The translations under genes were made by a program, and so were the position numbers. This document shows, one piece after another, positions 41,974 through 49,714 of a stretch of DNA of 64,000 nucleotides. The stretch is from Euryarchaeota archaeon. GTDB taxonomy: Archaea > Thermoplasmatota > SW-10-69-26 > JACQPN01. The stretch is from NCBI GenBank assembly GCA_016207515.1, contig JACQPN010000002.1:262350-326349 (forward strand), written 5' to 3'. Position 1 is the stretch's first letter, and each line of letters starts with the position of its first letter. The notes beneath the pieces are model-generated. The model saw nothing but the letters and a program-made list of their open reading frames with translations. It did not search any database and was not told the DNA's origin.

Positions 41974-43122
41974 ATGGATCCTGCGTTGAAGGATTTGCCA
42001 GACGTCGCGCCAAAGCTGGCCCAGTTTGTTGCGGAAACCGCAGCACGCCCACAGAGCACAGAACATCTCACCGGGCTTTTACGAGCCCTCGAACGACCAA
42101 TGGAAACAGGAGGCGCCCACGGGGTCGCGGGAAAGGCCTACCTGATGGGACTTTTCGCAGACCGCGCGATTGAAGGGCTCATCGAAGAGGATTATGTGCC
42201 TCACCGCGACCTCCGAGAATTCTTCCAGGCGCTAGGCGCAAACTACAATCGTTTGATTACGAACGATTGGGAGTTGCCGTTGGAATGGACCGAGTTACTC
42301 GAATCATACCAGAACGCCCTCATGGCCGCTGACAAAATCGACAAGCGCACGCTCCAAACCTTCGATTACATGGTTCCAATTAGCCACCACGATAGCGTCG
42401 CGGTAAAGGTATATCTCGCGCCAATCACCGGGCCATTCAAGGTCTCGGGATACAGTTATCCTTATTATCTTGACCTAGACTCGGCGCTTGCCGATCCAAA
42501 GAAAATTGAGGCCGTCGTCGACGCTTATGTGTGGAAGCTTCGCCTTCTTGAGGAAAAGATGACGGCCGAAAACGGCGAAAAGATTGATAAGATTTGCATG
42601 ATAGCCAAGAGGAAAGGGCCGGTCGGGGCGTTGTCACTGGCAAGCCACATTGCCGCAAAATTCGAACGCCCCGCCATGGTGTTCCGCGAGCGCGAGGTCG
42701 AAAGACCCCACAAGCTCCAAGGTGCGCCGCTCGAGCCAGGTGACCAGATTGCGATTGTTTATGACCTTAGTGTCGGCGGAGGAGGAATTGAAAGCGCTGC
42801 TGAATATCTGGTCGCAGAGGAGCCTACTTGCCGCGTCAGGGGCGCAGTCGTTCTGTGTGATTATGGACACCGCGCGAAAAGCCGACTGAAGGCCAAGAAC
42901 ATCGACCTAAATGCCATCGCCACACTGACACCGGACGATTACCGCGCAATCCGGGAACCTCAGTTGAAACGCGAAGCCGAAGGGCTCGATCAGGCCCTTC
43001 ATGACGGCCGCTTGACAGAACAAGAATATTTTGAGCGGCGGGGAGCGCTTAAGAACGATTTCGCTGACCTCGCATGGTTGAAGTTGTGTCCCACGTATGA
43101 TTCCGCCCAGTCCACCGAATGA
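41974..43122 (+). CDS. Phosphoribosyltransferase-fold protein with N-terminal helical extension
   Basis: 382 residues from the ATG at 41974; an in-frame GTG at 41962 is an alternative, and a TATA-like CTTATTTTT lies about 30 bases upstream. The N-terminal ~190 residues are unassigned. From about 205 an orotate-PRTase-like fold is visible: KRKGPVGALSLASHIAAKF, then the PRPP-binding-type motif IVYDLSVGGGGIESAAEYL. This motif lacks the second acidic residue of the usual DD pair. The end overlaps the SIR2 gene by 26 bases, so the two are coupled and probably work together. Confidence 0.65.
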   Translation: MDPALKDLPDVAPKLAQFVAETAARPQSTEHLTGLLRALERPMETGGAHGVAGKAYLMGLFADRAIEGLIEEDYVPHRDLREFFQALGANYNRLITNDWELPLEWTELLESYQNALMAADKIDKRTLQTFDYMVPISHHDSVAVKVYLAPITGPFKVSGYSYPYYLDLDSALADPKKIEAVVDAYVWKLRLLEEKMTAENGEKIDKICMIAKRKGPVGALSLASHIAAKFERPAMVFREREVERPHKLQGAPLEPGDQIAIVYDLSVGGGGIESAAEYLVAEEPTCRVRGAVVLCDYGHRAKSRLKAKNIDLNAIATLTPDDYRAIREPQLKREAEGLDQALHDGRLTEQEYFERRGALKNDFADLAWLKLCPTYDSAQSTE

Positions 43123-44239
43123 CCCAACCGACTTCCAAGCTGCCATGGCGACCGTCAAGGGCGACGTGCTTAACAAATATCAAACGGAGGCAAGCGTAGA
43201 TCCGTTCTTTGAAGCGGTTGTTGACTTCTTTGTTGTTCGTACGGCCACACGGTTTTACCAGGCTCACATGGAAAACAGACCTCCAGACGATTCCGAACTT
43301 GAACCTGCGTTTGACACTTCGTTGCTCATGAATTACCTTCCAAAGTATCCCCAGCTTCCATCCGTCTTCCTTATTGATTTGCTTGTGCAACGGTACGTCA
43401 CTCAAGACCGAGCGAAATTGTACAAGGTTGCGACCCAGTTAGATGGGAACGGGGGTCTCGTCATTGCCGGCGCGGGAATCTCATACGGGCCTGGCGTCGG
43501 AATCGCGTACCCGGAGATGGTGCGCTCCTGCGCGAAAGGCCTAGGGATTGACGTAGTCGAAAGTGACCCCGCCTCTCCGCATCTTCTGGAACCGTGGTGC
43601 CGTGCCCTTGAAGAGAAAGGTCTTCAACAACAATTCCAACTTGAGTTTAAGAACGCCAGCGAGGAATGCAACCCGACACGGGCACATGATTGGATAAGCG
43701 CATGGCAGTATGGAGGGGTCGTAGACCACGTAGCCACCACAAATTGGGACGACCTCTTCGAAAAGGCGTTCGAAAAAATCGCGAGCGCCGCGATCCTGAG
43801 AGGAAAATTACCGGAGGTCATTATTGGGAACCAGACGGCTACACTTACACGCGTCCTCTGGAAGTTGCACGGTTCCGTGCGCCAACCAAATCAACCTTGG
43901 ATCCTTTGCCATAGGAGCACAGTTGCAGAAGCCCTGAAGGAAACCTACCGAAAAGGCCACAAGAGTCATTGTGTGCTGGTAGTCGGCTCTCGGCTCGCCG
44001 ACAGTGCCCTCAACGAGTTCTTAGAGGTCGAGATGCGCCACAAGGTGAAGGGGCGAGATATGCTCCGAATTGAACCGGCCGAATCGTCAAAGGCCGACCC
44101 TTGGGTTGTGGTCCTGTCCGCTGACATCGCCTGTGAGATAATAGGTAAACACATGAAAAGCGGAAAAGCTAGCCACATTCTTGCGTGGATGGAGCACCTT
44201 CATGCCGACGCGTCCGGTATGAAGAAAGTGGCATCCTAG
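43097..44239 (+). CDS. SIR2-domain protein (predicted NADase/deacylase effector)
   Basis: 380 residues. A unique helical N-terminus (about 1-115) precedes the SIR2 fold: LVIAGAGISYG (NAD loop, residues 121-131), HVATTNWDDLFEKAF (211-225), LWKLHGSV (255-262) and VVGSRLADSALNEFL. This pattern (GAGIS, TTN-x-D, KLHGS) is that of SIR2-like effectors which cleave NAD in several prokaryotic immune systems. No zinc-ribbon Cys set of classical sirtuins is seen. It is coupled to the PRTase upstream. Confidence 0.8.
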   Translation: MIPPSPPNDPTDFQAAMATVKGDVLNKYQTEASVDPFFEAVVDFFVVRTATRFYQAHMENRPPDDSELEPAFDTSLLMNYLPKYPQLPSVFLIDLLVQRYVTQDRAKLYKVATQLDGNGGLVIAGAGISYGPGVGIAYPEMVRSCAKGLGIDVVESDPASPHLLEPWCRALEEKGLQQQFQLEFKNASEECNPTRAHDWISAWQYGGVVDHVATTNWDDLFEKAFEKIASAAILRGKLPEVIIGNQTATLTRVLWKLHGSVRQPNQPWILCHRSTVAEALKETYRKGHKSHCVLVVGSRLADSALNEFLEVEMRHKVKGRDMLRIEPAESSKADPWVVVLSADIACEIIGKHMKSGKASHILAWMEHLHADASGMKKVAS

Positions 44240-44418: not shown

Positions 44419-44742
44419 TTGTTTTGCCCGCTAGGGGCAGATGGTGAATGCACGAAGATCGTCGTAACACCGACAATCGGAAACACGGAGCCAGTACCGT
44501 TGGACGTGAATCCTTTGGATTCCGTCCGACAAGTGCGCGACAAGGCGGCAACGACCATGCTGGTCGAGAACGACTCAATCGAACTCGTCCACAAGGGAGA
44601 GAAGCTGCCGCTTGACGCGACGTTGCAGAACGCCGGCATCACCGAGGGAACCAGCCTCAAGGCGATGCCGGTCAAGCAATATGGGTACCGTTTTCTTGGA
44701 TTTTCATCCCGAAAAATTTACCCAAAATCTCGGCGATGCTGA
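44419..44742 (+). CDS. Ubiquitin-like beta-grasp protein
   Basis: 107 residues from a TTG; the only other in-frame start-like codon after the upstream stop at 44398 is a CTG. Residues 12-86 form a ubiquitin-type fold: a beta hairpin TKIVVTPTIG...PVPLDV, helix SVRQVRDKAATTM, then SIELVHKGEKLPLDATLQNAGITEGTSL (equivalent to ubiquitin's L-I-F-x-G-K-x-L-x-D-x-x-T-L-x-x-Y-x-I), given here in pieces. It is clearly paralogous to the Ubl half of the next protein. The tail after KAMPVK (about 20 residues) lacks a terminal Gly-Gly, so conjugation by its own end is doubtful unless the reading frame is wrong or the tail is processed. Confidence 0.75.
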   Translation: MFCPLGADGECTKIVVTPTIGNTEPVPLDVNPLDSVRQVRDKAATTMLVENDSIELVHKGEKLPLDATLQNAGITEGTSLKAMPVKQYGYRFLGFSSRKIYPKSRRC

Positions 44743-44815
44743 CGACGGCGACGTGCATCCTTTTTGTATCAAGAAGCCGCAAACTCCTCCTGCCCATCTC
44801 GGGCCGGAGAATTGA
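44681..44815 (+). CDS. Possible 44-residue protein overlapping the Ubl gene end
   Basis: The ATG at 44681 lies in a different frame from the Ubl gene and runs to six bases before the Ubl-E2 start. The product contains FLDFHPEKFTQNLGDADDGD and ends PPAHLGPEN; it is acidic and Pro-containing, with no known motif. It could be a real small subunit, or the true C-terminal part of the Ubl if a frameshift exists. Confidence 0.3.
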   Translation: MGTVFLDFHPEKFTQNLGDADDGDVHPFCIKKPQTPPAHLGPEN

Positions 44816-44821
44816 AAAAAC

Positions 44822-45508
44822 GTGAAACTGCGTGTATCGTCGAGCATTGGAGTTGGGAAGGATTGTGAGGTGGATGCTGAAGCCCTGGAGACCGTTCGGC
44901 AACTGAAAGGACGCGTCGCCGAGATTCAGGCGGTGGACGCGGACTCCATCAGTCTTGCGCACAAGGACCAGACGCTTCCTGATGGTGCCACGGTGAAGAA
45001 CTGTGGCCTCAAGGAAGGCGACAGCCTCAGCGTCATCCCACGCGATCCCAAAGGGGGCCTCAATGGAGTGGGCCCCTCTTCTCCTTTTTCCAATAACATC
45101 CTGAAAAACAGGCTTGTAGTCGAAGCGCAACGCATCCACGACGCCCGCATCCCGCTCCGCGCGGTCACGCCCCTCGAATGGACCGCTACGCTACCGGGCC
45201 GGGGACGGTGGAGGCACCAGACTTTCCAGATAACGATCCTTCTCCCGTACAACTACCCGGCGCGGCCGCCGATGGTCACGTTCGTGACGAAGCCTAGCCC
45301 ACGGCACCCGAACGTGAGCGACGAGGGCTGGGTGTGCTTGAACTACTTGCAGGACTCGTGGACTCCCGTCCACAACCTCGTGAGCGTCTACCGTGGCCTC
45401 GAATGGCTCCTCGAGAACCCGAACTACCACCACCCCTTGAACTTCGACGCGATGCCCCCGATGGACCTGGGGTTTGGGAGGTTTTGGCGTGCCCTCACCC
45501 GCATATAA
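44822..45508 (+). CDS. Ubiquitin-like protein fused to an E2 conjugating enzyme
   Basis: 228 residues from a GTG. Residues 1-75 are a ubiquitin-like fold (ETVRQLKGRVAEI helix, SISLAHKDQTLPDGATVKNCGLKEGDSL split across strands). It ends in RDPKGG, Gly78-Gly79, followed by a short linker. Residues ~92-228 are a full E2 core: the YNYPARPPMVTF strand-loop (144-155), HPN (162-164), the catalytic Cys in DEGWVCLNYL (Cys172), W180-TP, and the C-terminal ENPNYHHPLN. All hallmark E2 positions are present, so the enzyme should form a thioester. The Gly-Gly at the junction could be cut by the JAMM protease encoded next, releasing a conjugatable Ubl. Confidence 0.88.
   Translation: MKLRVSSSIGVGKDCEVDAEALETVRQLKGRVAEIQAVDADSISLAHKDQTLPDGATVKNCGLKEGDSLSVIPRDPKGGLNGVGPSSPFSNNILKNRLVVEAQRIHDARIPLRAVTPLEWTATLPGRGRWRHQTFQITILLPYNYPARPPMVTFVTKPSPRHPNVSDEGWVCLNYLQDSWTPVHNLVSVYRGLEWLLENPNYHHPLNFDAMPPMDLGFGRFWRALTRI
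45053..45089 (+). other. Terminator-like hairpin at the Ubl/E2 junction
   Basis: GGGGGCC (45053-45059) can pair with GGCCCCT (45071-45077) and is followed by a pyrimidine tract ending in five Ts (45085-45089). The 5' arm includes the codons for Gly78 and Gly79. Related hairpin-plus-pyrimidine elements are at 39792 and 41035. Confidence 0.45.
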
Positions 45509-46094
45509 CGCCATCATGGGCCTCCTCATCGGCGGCCTCGTTCTAGCCGGGTTTCAACTTCTCAAAAAGCGAAATGAACACGACAAGGTAACGGAGATCA
45601 CGCTCAAGGAGCACCCGACGACGGTCGCCGAAACCGACCTCGCCAAACTCGCGAAGACGGACACCATCCTGATCGATCCGTCCGTGGTCGCGCTCATCTT
45701 CGCCTGGGCCGCCAACCATCCCAAGAACGAGGTCGGCGCCCTACTCATCGGCCAACCCGATGGAAGATTCCTCAAAATCCATGACCTGGTCCGCGCCGAG
45801 AACGTGGGAACGGCAACCGAGATTGATTTCACGCCCCGGGACTTCGAGCGCGCACGCGCGAAGACAGGGAACGGTCGCATGGTCGTGGGCTGGGCACACT
45901 CGCATCCCACGTACACCGCCTTCATGTCCGGAACCGATCAACGGTTCCAATCGCAGGGCCAGGGCCTCTACCCGGACTACGTTGGACTCGTCATCGACCC
46001 GTTCAGGCCACGGGGCGTGGAGTTCGCCTTCTACCGCGTCACGAATGACGAGGTCGTGCAACTGCCGCACCACTACTGGAGGCGCTCAGAGTGA
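45489..46094 (+). CDS. Membrane-anchored JAMM/JAB-family isopeptidase
   Basis: 201 residues from a GTG at 45489, chosen because GGAGG lies 7 bases upstream (45477-45481); it overlaps the E2 gene end by 20 bases. A TM helix (about residues 8-25) is followed by a JAB1/MPN domain with the full metalloprotease signature: Glu81 in NEVGALLIG, His137-x-His139 in WAHSHP, Ser147 and Asp150 in FMSGTD (HxH-x7-S-x2-D). The predicted role is to mature Ubl precursors after Gly-Gly and/or remove Ubl from targets at the membrane. Confidence 0.9.
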   Translation: MPSPAYNAIMGLLIGGLVLAGFQLLKKRNEHDKVTEITLKEHPTTVAETDLAKLAKTDTILIDPSVVALIFAWAANHPKNEVGALLIGQPDGRFLKIHDLVRAENVGTATEIDFTPRDFERARAKTGNGRMVVGWAHSHPTYTAFMSGTDQRFQSQGQGLYPDYVGLVIDPFRPRGVEFAFYRVTNDEVVQLPHHYWRRSE

Positions 46095-46795
46095 AGCATG
46101 AACGCCAGACGCTTATCAAGGGATGGGACCAAGCGGCCATCAGCCGGGCTTCGGTGCTGGTGGCGGGGGCGGGCGCCATTGGGTCCGCCCTCGTCACCAT
46201 GCTCACCCGACTAGGCGTTGGCGCGATCACCATCATCGACCCCGACAGGCTCGAAGCGCAAAATCTGGAGAATCAGGCCTACGACGAGAGCGACCTCGGG
46301 AAATCGAAGGCATTCGCGCTCGCCGAGCGGATGCACCGTATCGACCCAGCGCTCCGCGTCACGCCGGTCGCGTGCCGGATTGAGGACTATCGGGGACCCG
46401 TTGACGCGGATTACTTGTTCGGTTGCTTCGACAACGTCGCAGCGCGCCACTACATCAATTTCATGGCCGTCACCGGCGGGAAGACGCTGGTTGACGCTGG
46501 AATCGAGAACTTTTGGGGCGCGATTAAAACCATCATCCCAGGCAAGACCGCGTGCCAAGGGTGCCTTCCGACGGTCCAGTCGAGTGCAGTGAAGGCGTCT
46601 TGTTCCAGCGACCCGATTCCAAGCACGTTCGTGACGGCAAACATGGCCGCAGGCTTGCAGGCGATCCAGTTCCTAAAACTGGTACGCGGCGAACGGGTTC
46701 ACTCGTACGTCTACTTCGACCTCGCCCGCAGTACCCTCTACAACTACGATTACAAGCCGAACCCCAAATGCGAGATTTGCGGGGGATCGACGTGA
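46091..46795 (+). CDS. E1-like ThiF/MoeB-family activating enzyme
   Basis: 234 residues; the GTG overlaps the JAB stop (GTGA). ERQTLIKGWDQ resembles the E1 N-terminal Arg motif, followed by the nucleotide loop GAGAIGS (26-32), IIDPDRLEAQNLENQ (49-62) and DLGKSKA. Zinc-binding pairs are CQGC (155-158) and CEIC (227-230). A candidate catalytic Cys171 lies in KASCSSDP, just before the AAGLQAIQFLKL helix. The usual NLxRQ motif reads NLENQ, so the conserved Arg is replaced. It should adenylate the Ubl C-terminus and pass it to the E2. Confidence 0.87.
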   Translation: MKHERQTLIKGWDQAAISRASVLVAGAGAIGSALVTMLTRLGVGAITIIDPDRLEAQNLENQAYDESDLGKSKAFALAERMHRIDPALRVTPVACRIEDYRGPVDADYLFGCFDNVAARHYINFMAVTGGKTLVDAGIENFWGAIKTIIPGKTACQGCLPTVQSSAVKASCSSDPIPSTFVTANMAAGLQAIQFLKLVRGERVHSYVYFDLARSTLYNYDYKPNPKCEICGGST

Positions 46796-46998
46796 CGGGT
46801 ATCGTCGACCGAATCGCTTCGCAGTTCCTCTTCACCTTCGCACTGATGGGTGACCTCATGCTGAAGACGCGAGTTCCGTTGCTCCTTCCTTTGGCGTTGC
46901 TCGCGTTGGTCTACGTGTGGCCCTTCGCCTTGTTCCTCATCTTCTGCGCATGGGCGTCCGTGGGGAAGACGGAGTGGTTGGAGAGGTATCGACGATGA
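46792..46998 (+). CDS. Small two-helix membrane protein 1
   Basis: 68 residues; its GTG overlaps the E1 stop (GTGA). Residues 30-56 form a hydrophobic hairpin (VPLLLPLALLALVYVW, FALFLIFCAW) after a short amphipathic N-terminus, with a charged end KTEWLERYRR. No family recognised. Strict coupling indicates a component of the Ubl system. Confidence 0.65.
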   Translation: MTGIVDRIASQFLFTFALMGDLMLKTRVPLLLPLALLALVYVWPFALFLIFCAWASVGKTEWLERYRR

Positions 46999-47186
46999 AG
47001 ACCATTCCGGCCAACGTGCGACTACTTCCCTGGTGGCATGTCTTTGGCCAAGGCCTCATCGTCGGCCTCCTAGTCGGCTTCTTCGTCACGTTCAACATAC
47101 TGCTACTGGTACTCGTCGGCGTCGTCACCCTGGCCTACCATGTGGAGTACGCGTGGCGAACCGAGTGGAGGAAACAGCGTGGCTGA
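46995..47186 (+). CDS. Small two-helix membrane protein 2
   Basis: 63 residues; the ATG overlaps the previous stop (ATGA). A hydrophobic stretch covers about residues 19-48 (GLIVGLLVGFF, ILLLVLVGVVTLAY), and the tail is basic (TEWRKQRG). No family recognised. Confidence 0.65.
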   Translation: MKTIPANVRLLPWWHVFGQGLIVGLLVGFFVTFNILLLVLVGVVTLAYHVEYAWRTEWRKQRG

Positions 47187-47367
47187 CTACTCGCCCCACG
47201 TCAAGATCCTCACGTTCTTCCTGATCCTAGTCCTCACGTACTTCATCATGGCCTTCACCTTCAACATCGAGAACCTCTGGCGAAGCCTCATCATCGTCAT
47301 CGCCGTCATCGTCCTCGTAATCACGGTCCTCGCACGCTTCGGAGGCAACCTTGGCGGGACCGACTAG
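47179..47367 (+). CDS. Small two-helix membrane protein 3
   Basis: 62 residues; the GTG overlaps the previous gene by 8 bases. Two hydrophobic helices (about 9-25 and 31-49) are followed by the tail ARFGGNLGGTD, which carries two Gly-Gly pairs. Its end overlaps the ATPase gene by 17 bases. Confidence 0.62.
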   Translation: MADYSPHVKILTFFLILVLTYFIMAFTFNIENLWRSLIIVIAVIVLVITVLARFGGNLGGTD

Positions 47368-49714
47368 AATCCTAGGCTTCAACCCGAAGCAGGCCCAGCA
47401 CAAGGTTCCCTGGATCCCCGCCGACTGGATTCTGACGATTGATCTGGATGGCGTGCCGCGGCTCTACTTCGACTTCTGGCGGACCGGCCTGCTCGGGCGG
47501 GAAAGGAACGGGAAAATCCAGCAACGCGCGATTGAAGCCTTGTCGAGCGACTACGTTCTTCACGCCAGGCCCGAAGCGCCACCACAAACGAACCTCCGTT
47601 ACGCCTATTCGTGCACGTACTCGAACGACCGCCTCCCGGAAGCCTGCATGACCCTACTCCAACTCGGCATCAAAACGCGCCTCCACCTACTCGTTCAAGA
47701 CCGTGGACATCTGGCGAGCTTCGCCGTCGCCACGGAGCGGCCCGTGCCCCACGTGCTTCGTCAATTCTTCCGCGACCTCGAAGAAATCACGTCCCAAGAT
47801 TTCGAAGCCGTCGCGGCCGGCCACACGCTGCGACCCAAGCACCTAACGCGATTCACGCTACCAACTCTTCCGGGTCTTCTCTCAGCAGCGCCAACGGTTC
47901 TTCCGCTCGAGTCCTCGACGCCCCCGCATGGCGCGGCAATCCAGCTGGGCGAAATTCTGAGCCCCATCAACGGCAAACCCATCGGGCCCGCTTTCCTCAC
48001 TCTTGACGCCCTGAACCATCATGTATTGGTCGCTGGAACGACTGGCGCAGGAAAGACGAACACCGTCCTCCGCATGATCCAAGAGACCCACGGTCAAGTC
48101 GAAGGGATACTCGTTTTCGACGTGAAACAAGAATACCGAACCCTGCACGCTTCTCTGAACGCCAAAGTCTATGGCTTCACCGGTCGAAACCTCCTCACCC
48201 ACAACCTCCTGAAACCAAGTGGCCCGCCCGCGCAATGGGTCAAGGAATTCTCATCGATCTTCAGCGAAGTGATCAATCGCTACGTCCCGGCTGTCGGAAG
48301 CAAGGACATCGTGGCCGAAACCCTCGACAAACTCTACCGGGAACGAGGCATCTACGAAGACGGAGTCAACTACCCACACATCGGAGACCTCATAGAAGCA
48401 CTTGAAAAGAGGCCCACGAGCGGCCGGGAAGCCGGATGGAGCTCGTCGGCGCTACGCGTCCTTCGCTCGCTCATGATCGGCACCACTCGACAGGCCTTCT
48501 GCGTTCGAGAAGGAATCGCCCTCGAAGCACTCCTCAACGGAGTAACGGTCGTAGAACTCGACGGCCTCGGAGATCCCGCAGGCAGCGCGCTTCTCGTCAG
48601 CGTCCTTCTCCAAAAAATACGCGACCGCCTCCAACGCGAAAAAACGGAAGGCCTACGACACCTCATCGTGTTCGAAGAAGCCCAACACTTACTCGCACTC
48701 GGGCAAGAATCCACGTCAGTCCTCACGACCACATGTCGGGAAATACGATACCTCGGCGTCGGACTAGTCTTCGTGACCCAGATGCCGAACGAGTTCAGCA
48801 AACACGCCCTCGCAAACGTCAACACCACCATCATCCACAAACTCATCCGACCACAGGACCAGCACACGGCCGCCGCTCTACTCCGACTAAACGACGACGC
48901 GGAGGACGCCCAAGCACGGCTTGGCGTGGGACAAGCCCTCGTTCGATCGGACGCGCTCAATCTCGTCCAAATCCCCGAAATCCAGCGGCCCGAAGTAAGG
49001 GACGTTGACCTGTCCCAAACAGTCCCAAACCCCGAAGAGCGGTCCCCAACACATGCGGAGCGCCACGAAGTCGAAAAACGCCTCACAAGGCTCACGCCTC
49101 GCGATTGGGCCGTCTTCAACGCCATCGCCGGGTCCCGGGCAATCAGCCCACGCGCCATCCGGGAACTCCTCAAGCGCAGCCAAAGCGCCGTCAGAGCCAG
49201 TCTGACGAGACTCATCAACCTCGGCCTCGTAGCCTACCTCGAAGCCAAAACCAACGAAGGGAGACCACCAAGCATCTACTTCCTACGCCCCTACGGCACC
49301 GACGCCTACACGATGAAAGCCGGAAGGTCGCCAGATCGAATCCACGCCGCCGCAGCGGACCACAAGGAACTCGTCGAGGAAGTAACCCGTATCCTCGGAG
49401 TCGAACGAATCCCGGACCGACACTTTGACCTCCTCTACGCCGCCGAAGGCCACGAACGAGCAATCGAGATCGAAACCGGCGCCAACAAGAACGACCAGAT
49501 ACTCATCAACGTCACCAAATCCATCGAACTCCAAGGAGAGGCACACTTTGTAGCCGCCGACGACACCACCCTCAACAGAATCCTCCAAATCACCGCCAAG
49601 CACAGCTTCGACACGAGGACCATGATCGCAGTCAATGTCACGACTCTGAACGAGATTCGAACGGGCCGATGGCGCGCCTACACGTTTGAGACCGAGAAAC
49701 CCCAGACTACGTGA
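47351..49714 (+). CDS. HerA/FtsK-type ATPase with winged-helix and nuclease-like C-terminal domains
   Basis: 787 residues from a TTG overlapping the preceding gene. An N-terminal ~215-residue unassigned domain is followed by a HerA-type P-loop core: Walker A GTTGAGKT (229-236), FDVKQEY and Walker B LIVFEEAQ (438-445), then a TQMP sensor. A winged helix lies near 585-650 (RAISPRAIRELLKRS). The C-terminal ~90 residues contain HFDLLYAAEG...AIEIETG, resembling the (D)...E-x-E core of restriction-endonuclease-fold domains, which is uncertain. It is the last gene of the Ubl operon and is likely a hexameric DNA-translocating motor. Confidence 0.78.
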   Translation: MAGPTRILGFNPKQAQHKVPWIPADWILTIDLDGVPRLYFDFWRTGLLGRERNGKIQQRAIEALSSDYVLHARPEAPPQTNLRYAYSCTYSNDRLPEACMTLLQLGIKTRLHLLVQDRGHLASFAVATERPVPHVLRQFFRDLEEITSQDFEAVAAGHTLRPKHLTRFTLPTLPGLLSAAPTVLPLESSTPPHGAAIQLGEILSPINGKPIGPAFLTLDALNHHVLVAGTTGAGKTNTVLRMIQETHGQVEGILVFDVKQEYRTLHASLNAKVYGFTGRNLLTHNLLKPSGPPAQWVKEFSSIFSEVINRYVPAVGSKDIVAETLDKLYRERGIYEDGVNYPHIGDLIEALEKRPTSGREAGWSSSALRVLRSLMIGTTRQAFCVREGIALEALLNGVTVVELDGLGDPAGSALLVSVLLQKIRDRLQREKTEGLRHLIVFEEAQHLLALGQESTSVLTTTCREIRYLGVGLVFVTQMPNEFSKHALANVNTTIIHKLIRPQDQHTAAALLRLNDDAEDAQARLGVGQALVRSDALNLVQIPEIQRPEVRDVDLSQTVPNPEERSPTHAERHEVEKRLTRLTPRDWAVFNAIAGSRAISPRAIRELLKRSQSAVRASLTRLINLGLVAYLEAKTNEGRPPSIYFLRPYGTDAYTMKAGRSPDRIHAAAADHKELVEEVTRILGVERIPDRHFDLLYAAEGHERAIEIETGANKNDQILINVTKSIELQGEAHFVAADDTTLNRILQITAKHSFDTRTMIAVNVTTLNEIRTGRWRAYTFETEKPQTT

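Follow-up and report, generated by a model that had tools for sequence, protein, structure and literature searches.

The question raised by this locus is whether a reading frame that joins a ubiquitin-like (Ubl) domain to an E2 across a Gly-Gly motif encodes a precursor that is cut into modifier and enzyme, or a protein whose two halves stay permanently tethered. The locus lies in a 64,000-nucleotide stretch (hereafter the window) of Euryarchaeota archaeon contig JACQPN010000002.1, positions 262,350 to 326,349 of the forward strand. A preliminary description had placed the two glycines at residues 78-79, exactly where a mature ubiquitin would end, with a complete E2 beginning about 12 residues later and a JAMM protease as the next gene; such a precursor, it suggested, may supply modifier and enzyme in a 1:1 ratio. 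The features concerned are as follows.

44419-44742, + strand: second Ubl ORF, immediately 5' of the fusion, TTG start, without Gly-Gly (PF00240, 6e-6)
44822-45508, + strand: Ubl-E2 fusion ORF, GTG start at 44822, stop at 45506-45508, 228 aa
44822-45058, + strand: ubiquitin-like domain, residues 1-79, ending Pro-Lys-Gly-Gly (PF00240, 7e-9, at residues 12-71; 6fnn fold match; Gly-Gly column)
45059-45094, + strand: linker, residues 80-91 (LNGVGPSSPFSN), predicted disordered (pLDDT < 50), with the proposed cut before Leu80
45095-45508, + strand: E2 (UBC) domain, residues 92-228 plus stop (PF00179, UQ_con, 5e-22, at residues 118-211; PDB E2s up to 2e-14)
45516-46094, + strand: JAB/JAMM protease, Rpn11-like, with E72, HSHP...SGTD and a short hydrophobic N-terminus (PF14464, 9e-9; PF01398, 3e-8; 6fjv, 1.1e-13)
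46091-46795, + strand: ThiF-type E1 with GAGAIGS and zinc cysteines C155/C158/C227/C230 (PF00899, 1.7e-41)
46792-46998, + strand: small hydrophobic protein A, 68 aa (reading frame and translation)
46995-47186, + strand: small hydrophobic protein B, 63 aa (reading frame; end matches the paralogous operon)
47179-47367, + strand: small protein C (62 aa) with two predicted membrane helices (two hydrophobic segments; 83.6% identity to the paralogous operon)
47351-49714, + strand: ATPase of HerA/CedD/VirB4 type that includes a winged-helix region; the operon ends with this gene (HerA_C, 2e-11; DUF87, 5e-10)

The glycines were found at the residues claimed, encoded by GGG GGC at 45053-45058. In the E2 part, HPN occupies residues 162-164 and is followed at the usual spacing by the catalytic Cys172 (45335-45337). 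The AlphaFold model of the fusion had a moderate mean pLDDT of 66; within it the Ubl was confident up to about residue 73, pLDDT fell below 50 over residues 76-93, indicating disorder, and residues 91-107 formed the first E2 helix, which agrees with the distance to the E2 that had been proposed. Foldseek searches with the model returned, among the best matches, the archaeal ubiquitin CsUb in the CsUb:CsRpn11 complex (6fnn), and eukaryotic E2s and ubiquitin were also matched. Judged on sequence and on the predicted fold, the N-terminal part is a ubiquitin-family domain, having the ubiquitin fold with Gly-Gly at its end, and the C-terminal part is by its sequence an E2, with UBC fold, HPN and Cys.

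The following gene was likewise as proposed, a JAB protein in which the JAMM residues (E, HxH, SxxD) are intact, including HSHPx6SGTD. The glutamate earlier numbered Glu81 corresponds to Glu72 when translation is taken from the ATG at 45516, alternative starts being GTG at 45489 and TTG at 45474. The closest solved structure was CsRpn11 (6fjv, above), and the motif together with this similarity identifies the putative product as an Rpn11-type JAMM; its structure model (pLDDT 47) was too poor for the substrate groove to be read. The start of the E1 gene (46091) overlaps the JAB stop, and alignment of three fused-clade E1s placed a candidate catalytic Cys171 within SCSxDPIPS. Overlaps of a few bases between several adjacent genes make the arrangement operon-like, in the order Ubl-E2, JAB, E1, small membrane proteins and HerA ATPase. 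NCBIfam models of CedD (1e-18), HerA and VirB4 matched the ATPase only in part. Among named anti-virus defence systems, the E1-E2, JAB and HerA models of PADLOC gave only partial matches. No RING was matched by Pfam among the operon proteins scanned, which were all but small protein A (46792-46998). The layout of the small hydrophobic proteins and the HerA-like ATPase (46792-49714) is reminiscent of archaeal DNA-transfer machinery.

The Ubl encoded directly upstream of the fusion was 36% identical to the fused Ubl, carried MPVKQYGY in place of the Gly-Gly tail and matched only positions 2-74 of the 79 of the model. Its lack of Gly-Gly ruled it out as the true modifier, and it is possibly a decayed tandem duplicate. 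A small ORF (44681-44815, beginning MGTVFLDFHPEKFTQNLGD) overlaps its end in another frame and had no Pfam or PADLOC match. Further upstream, a SIR2-like protein (43097-44239) showed weak similarity to ThsA of Thoeris; no counterpart was found in the paralogous operon.

Searching a sample of 389 Thermoplasmatota genomes with a two-sequence profile brought the number of fusions to five, in four genomes that are in many contigs. A second fusion in the window genome (contig C8, read as L021) was 42% identical to the first and open through the junction, and its operon keeps the order Ubl-E2, JAB, E1, small membrane proteins and HerA. Three further fusions, without internal stops, were found in genomes G253, G195 (Thermoplasmatales archaeon SG8-52-3, contig LSSG01000004.1) and G151, and HPN and the catalytic Cys are kept in all four full-length fusions. 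The order Ubl-E2, JAB, E1 was common to the three fused-clade operons read through E1 (window, C8 and G195); the HerA gene of G195 runs off the end of its contig and was identified by weak matches only. The G151 fusion (L070:2451-2834) is truncated in its E2, and no JAB was found after it; either this copy has decayed or the assembly is faulty there. Between the window and C8, identity was 70% for HerA and 84% for small protein C, against 49% for E1, 40% for JAB and 27% for the Ubl, so the conjugation genes are the faster-diverging; on these sequence comparisons, two parallel systems may have become insulated from each other.

Scans of genome-contig and viral-contig collections with the fusion-alignment pattern found no relative, and the E1-alignment pattern matched only SG8-52-3 among genome contigs. 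Plasmid HerA matches were dismissed as related operons, the genes around them being unrelated. Viral contigs (L079-L127) encode distant ThiF/E1-like proteins that share about 23-44% identity with the E1 of the fused clade. In genome G320, an operon (L140:7332-12195) holds a 38% identical HerA, a ThiF E1 and a JAB-like protein, and its first gene appears by eye to be a Ubl ending in ELGG joined to another domain. As a second type of Ubl-Gly-Gly-E2 fusion it was left unconfirmed: Pfam, NCBIfam and PDB gave no match, and the profile scores fell in the range of shuffled controls. In G072 (L147:5814-9561), a JAB-domain protein whose C-terminal part is Ubl-like by eye lies shortly before another HerA-type ATPase.

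The origin of the fusion was addressed by comparison with 39 Thermoplasmatota loci in which ubl and e2 are separate genes. All 39 Ubls had Gly-Gly at the column of the fusion junction, with a stop codon reached after a further 0-9 residues, so the junction corresponds to the ancestral Ubl C-terminus, in line with the preliminary description, which had placed the glycines where a mature ubiquitin would end. In 22 of these loci the E2 lies in the same frame as the Ubl, often as GG-stop-ATG, such that one stop-codon change would yield a fusion. The fused forms grouped in one clade in the trees of E2 (98/100), E1 (99/97) and JAB (100/99), in which the inner order was unsure and branches were long; the Ubl tree had too few columns to decide. 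A single fusion event fits this grouping, and the fusion would have arisen once, when ubl and e2 genes lying side by side lost the stop codon that separated them.

Within the fused clade the junction itself varies. Gly-Gly is kept in three of the five fusions (window, PKGG/LNG; C8, PIGG/ASP; G151, PEGG/APT), a small sample that includes the truncated G151, and is therefore not universal there, being absent from G253 (RTVG/EFS) and G195 (HAPGS/SNA). Another Gly-Gly occurs about ten residues downstream in G195, and a cut there would leave an unusually long tail. The preliminary description had tied cutting to a conserved position of the two glycines among relatives; this held for the window, C8, G151 and every separate-gene Ubl and failed for G253 and G195. 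The position of Gly-Gly is in any case insufficient on its own to demonstrate cutting, since loss of a stop codon would itself leave the motif at the junction.

The best explanation for the window fusion, reached by analogy, is that it is probably a polyprotein precursor, arisen once by stop loss and cut by the JAMM of its own operon. The Rpn11-like JAMM would cut after Gly79 to give a mature Ubl ending in PKGG and an E2 starting at Leu80; the ThiF-type E1 would then activate the Ubl and pass it to Cys172 of the E2, and the JAMM may later strip the Ubl from its targets. The precedent comes from Caldiarchaeum, in which CsRpn11 cuts pro-ubiquitin exactly after Gly-Gly as well as linear ubiquitin fusions to GFP, lactalbumin and DHFR, folded DHFR needing only a short linker, and in which the E1 is inactive on uncut pro-ubiquitin (PMC6043591, PMC5654768). 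Cutting appears the better reading given an adjacent JAB with an intact JAMM motif whose nearest solved structure is that of CsRpn11. The linker of about 12 residues, predicted to be disordered, also favours it when set against the short linker that suffices for CsRpn11 on DHFR, as does the retention of Gly-Gly in both fusions of the window genome despite Ubl bodies just 27% identical and JAB and E1 at 40-49% identity.

A further argument concerns substrates. A PF00240 search of the window genome (98% complete) returned only the two fusions and the upstream Ubl without Gly-Gly, SAMP/MoaD-type modifiers being invisible to this model. With no other ubiquitin-family protein bearing Gly-Gly, the E1s and JAB seem to be without a ubiquitin-family substrate unless the fusions are cut. 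This argument is not airtight, as G195 keeps E1 and JAB with intact motifs and yet lacks Gly-Gly at its fusion, no other ubiquitin-family Ubl having been detected in that genome (78% complete). The present analysis covers anatomy, neighbours, conservation and the single fused clade, and the cut is extrapolated from a homologue in another archaeon, by which analogy cutting in the window is likely. The earlier proposal of cutting by the JAMM is thus partly supported: it gained an ancestral Gly-Gly, a CsRpn11-like JAB and the lack of another Gly-Gly substrate, and lost ground as a general rule in G253 and G195, two sequences that in part bear out the refuting observation named in the preliminary description.

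Both of these junctions bear on the alternative that the fusion remains uncut, the Ubl serving the E2 as an integral domain that acts non-covalently (for activation, targeting or partner binding) and the Gly-Gly of the window being a relic of stop loss. CsRpn11 does not cleave substrates in which Val replaces the first Gly, Val or Glu replaces the second, or Glu directly follows the cut site, but it tolerates Ala in place of the second Gly (PMC6043591). The G253 fusion, with Val at P2 and Glu at P1', should accordingly resist cutting, as either residue alone blocks CsRpn11 (PMC6043591), although rules derived from one enzyme may not transfer; the Ser at the second position of G195 is outside the substitutions tried in that work (PMC6043591). 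A permanent tether would also be in keeping with the absence of Gly-Gly from the upstream Ubl, and has a parallel in Giardia, where one ubiquitin-ribosomal protein fusion (ubiquitin-eS31) lost a junction glycine and stays uncut (PMC11354881). For the window genome, however, this reading is unlikely, given that Gly-Gly outlasted the divergence of the two Ubls and that an active-looking Rpn11-like JAB and an E1 stand in the operon with no other Gly-Gly substrate of the ubiquitin family in the genome. Some fused relatives are perhaps permanently tethered.

An intermediate outcome, in which the cut is slow or signal-dependent, tethered and free forms both work and the JAMM acts as a switch, draws on the strong dependence of the CsRpn11 rate on the residues after Gly-Gly (PMC6043591); the window has Leu and Asn at P1' and P2', outside the residues tried on CsRpn11. 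No sequence feature suggests regulation, however, and such an outcome is considered improbable. It is very improbable that translation also begins at an internal start codon in the linker to give a separate E2, with the fusion not the functional form. Codon 83 of the window fusion is indeed an in-frame GTG that follows a G-rich stretch, and the paralog has an in-frame ATG in its linker, but no start codon is conserved: the G151 linker has none, and in G195 and G253 the sole candidates either precede the junction or fall within the first E2 helix. Moreover, with no stop after the Ubl the fusion would be made regardless, and an internal start was dismissed. That an assembly artefact or sequencing frameshift joined two genes is scarcely credible and was rejected, for although the genomes are in many contigs and the G151 E2 is truncated, the reading frame crosses the junction unbroken and unshifted at five separate loci in four genomes.

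With cutting as the preferred reading, a wider interpretation can be offered more tentatively, as somewhat doubtful in its entirety: the modifier may be produced solely in polyprotein form, joined to its own active E2, a single JAMM cut maturing the tag and freeing the enzyme in the service of the HerA ATPase and small membrane proteins, with loss of the junction leaving a permanent Ubl-E2 tether in some relatives. Having members that keep and members that lose Gly-Gly, the fused clade provides a natural comparison of cleavable precursor and tether, and the two diverged copies in one cell allow it to be asked whether each Ubl pairs solely with its own E1, E2 and JAMM. No paper on a Ubl-E2 fusion with an active E2, or on the ubiquitin genes of SG8-52 genomes, was found in the open-access literature; in the papers that were found, ubiquitin is joined to ribosomal proteins, to short tails or to E2-like domains that are inactive, and not to an active cognate E2.

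Among the nearest known arrangements are the separate-gene Thermoplasmatota operons, which have homologous E2, JAB, E1 and Ubl and the same Gly-Gly position. They differ in that Ubl and E2 are unfused and the E1 usually precedes the Ubl, and no HerA gene was found by similarity in the stretches read. Eukaryotic ubiquitin-ribosomal protein fusions likewise place ubiquitin at the N-terminus and are cut after Gly-Gly; there, however, the partner is a ribosomal protein rather than the modifier's own E2, and other protease families release the ubiquitin. The earlier statement that ubiquitin is not normally fused to its own E2 stands with a qualifier, as poly-Ubls joined to an E2-like domain that is inactive are on record in bacteria (Iyer 2006, row 6e, PMC1779556). 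These operons share with the window operon a Ubl and an E2-like domain on one chain, but have two or three Ubls, an inactive E2-like domain and a JAB fused to the E1 (PMC1779556); the single Ubl of the window fusion and its E2 with HPN and Cys rule out membership. The ubiquitin operon of Candidatus Caldiarchaeum subterraneum (CsUb, E1, E2, a small RING protein and Rpn11) resembles the window operon in having Gly-Gly with extra residues, an E2, an E1 and a JAMM, a likeness that extends to the window JAB, closest to CsRpn11 among solved structures, and to the Ubl model, closest to CsUb of the CsUb:CsRpn11 complex. It was ruled out as the type to which the window operon belongs, as in the latter no RING was matched in the scanned proteins, the E1 is small and ThiF-type, and HerA and membrane genes are present. 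In Caldiarchaeum the extension after Gly-Gly is a nine-residue tail, whereas in the window it is a whole E2; judged by its genes, the window operon is thus an archaeal ubiquitin-type operon whose putative pro-peptide is the E2 itself.
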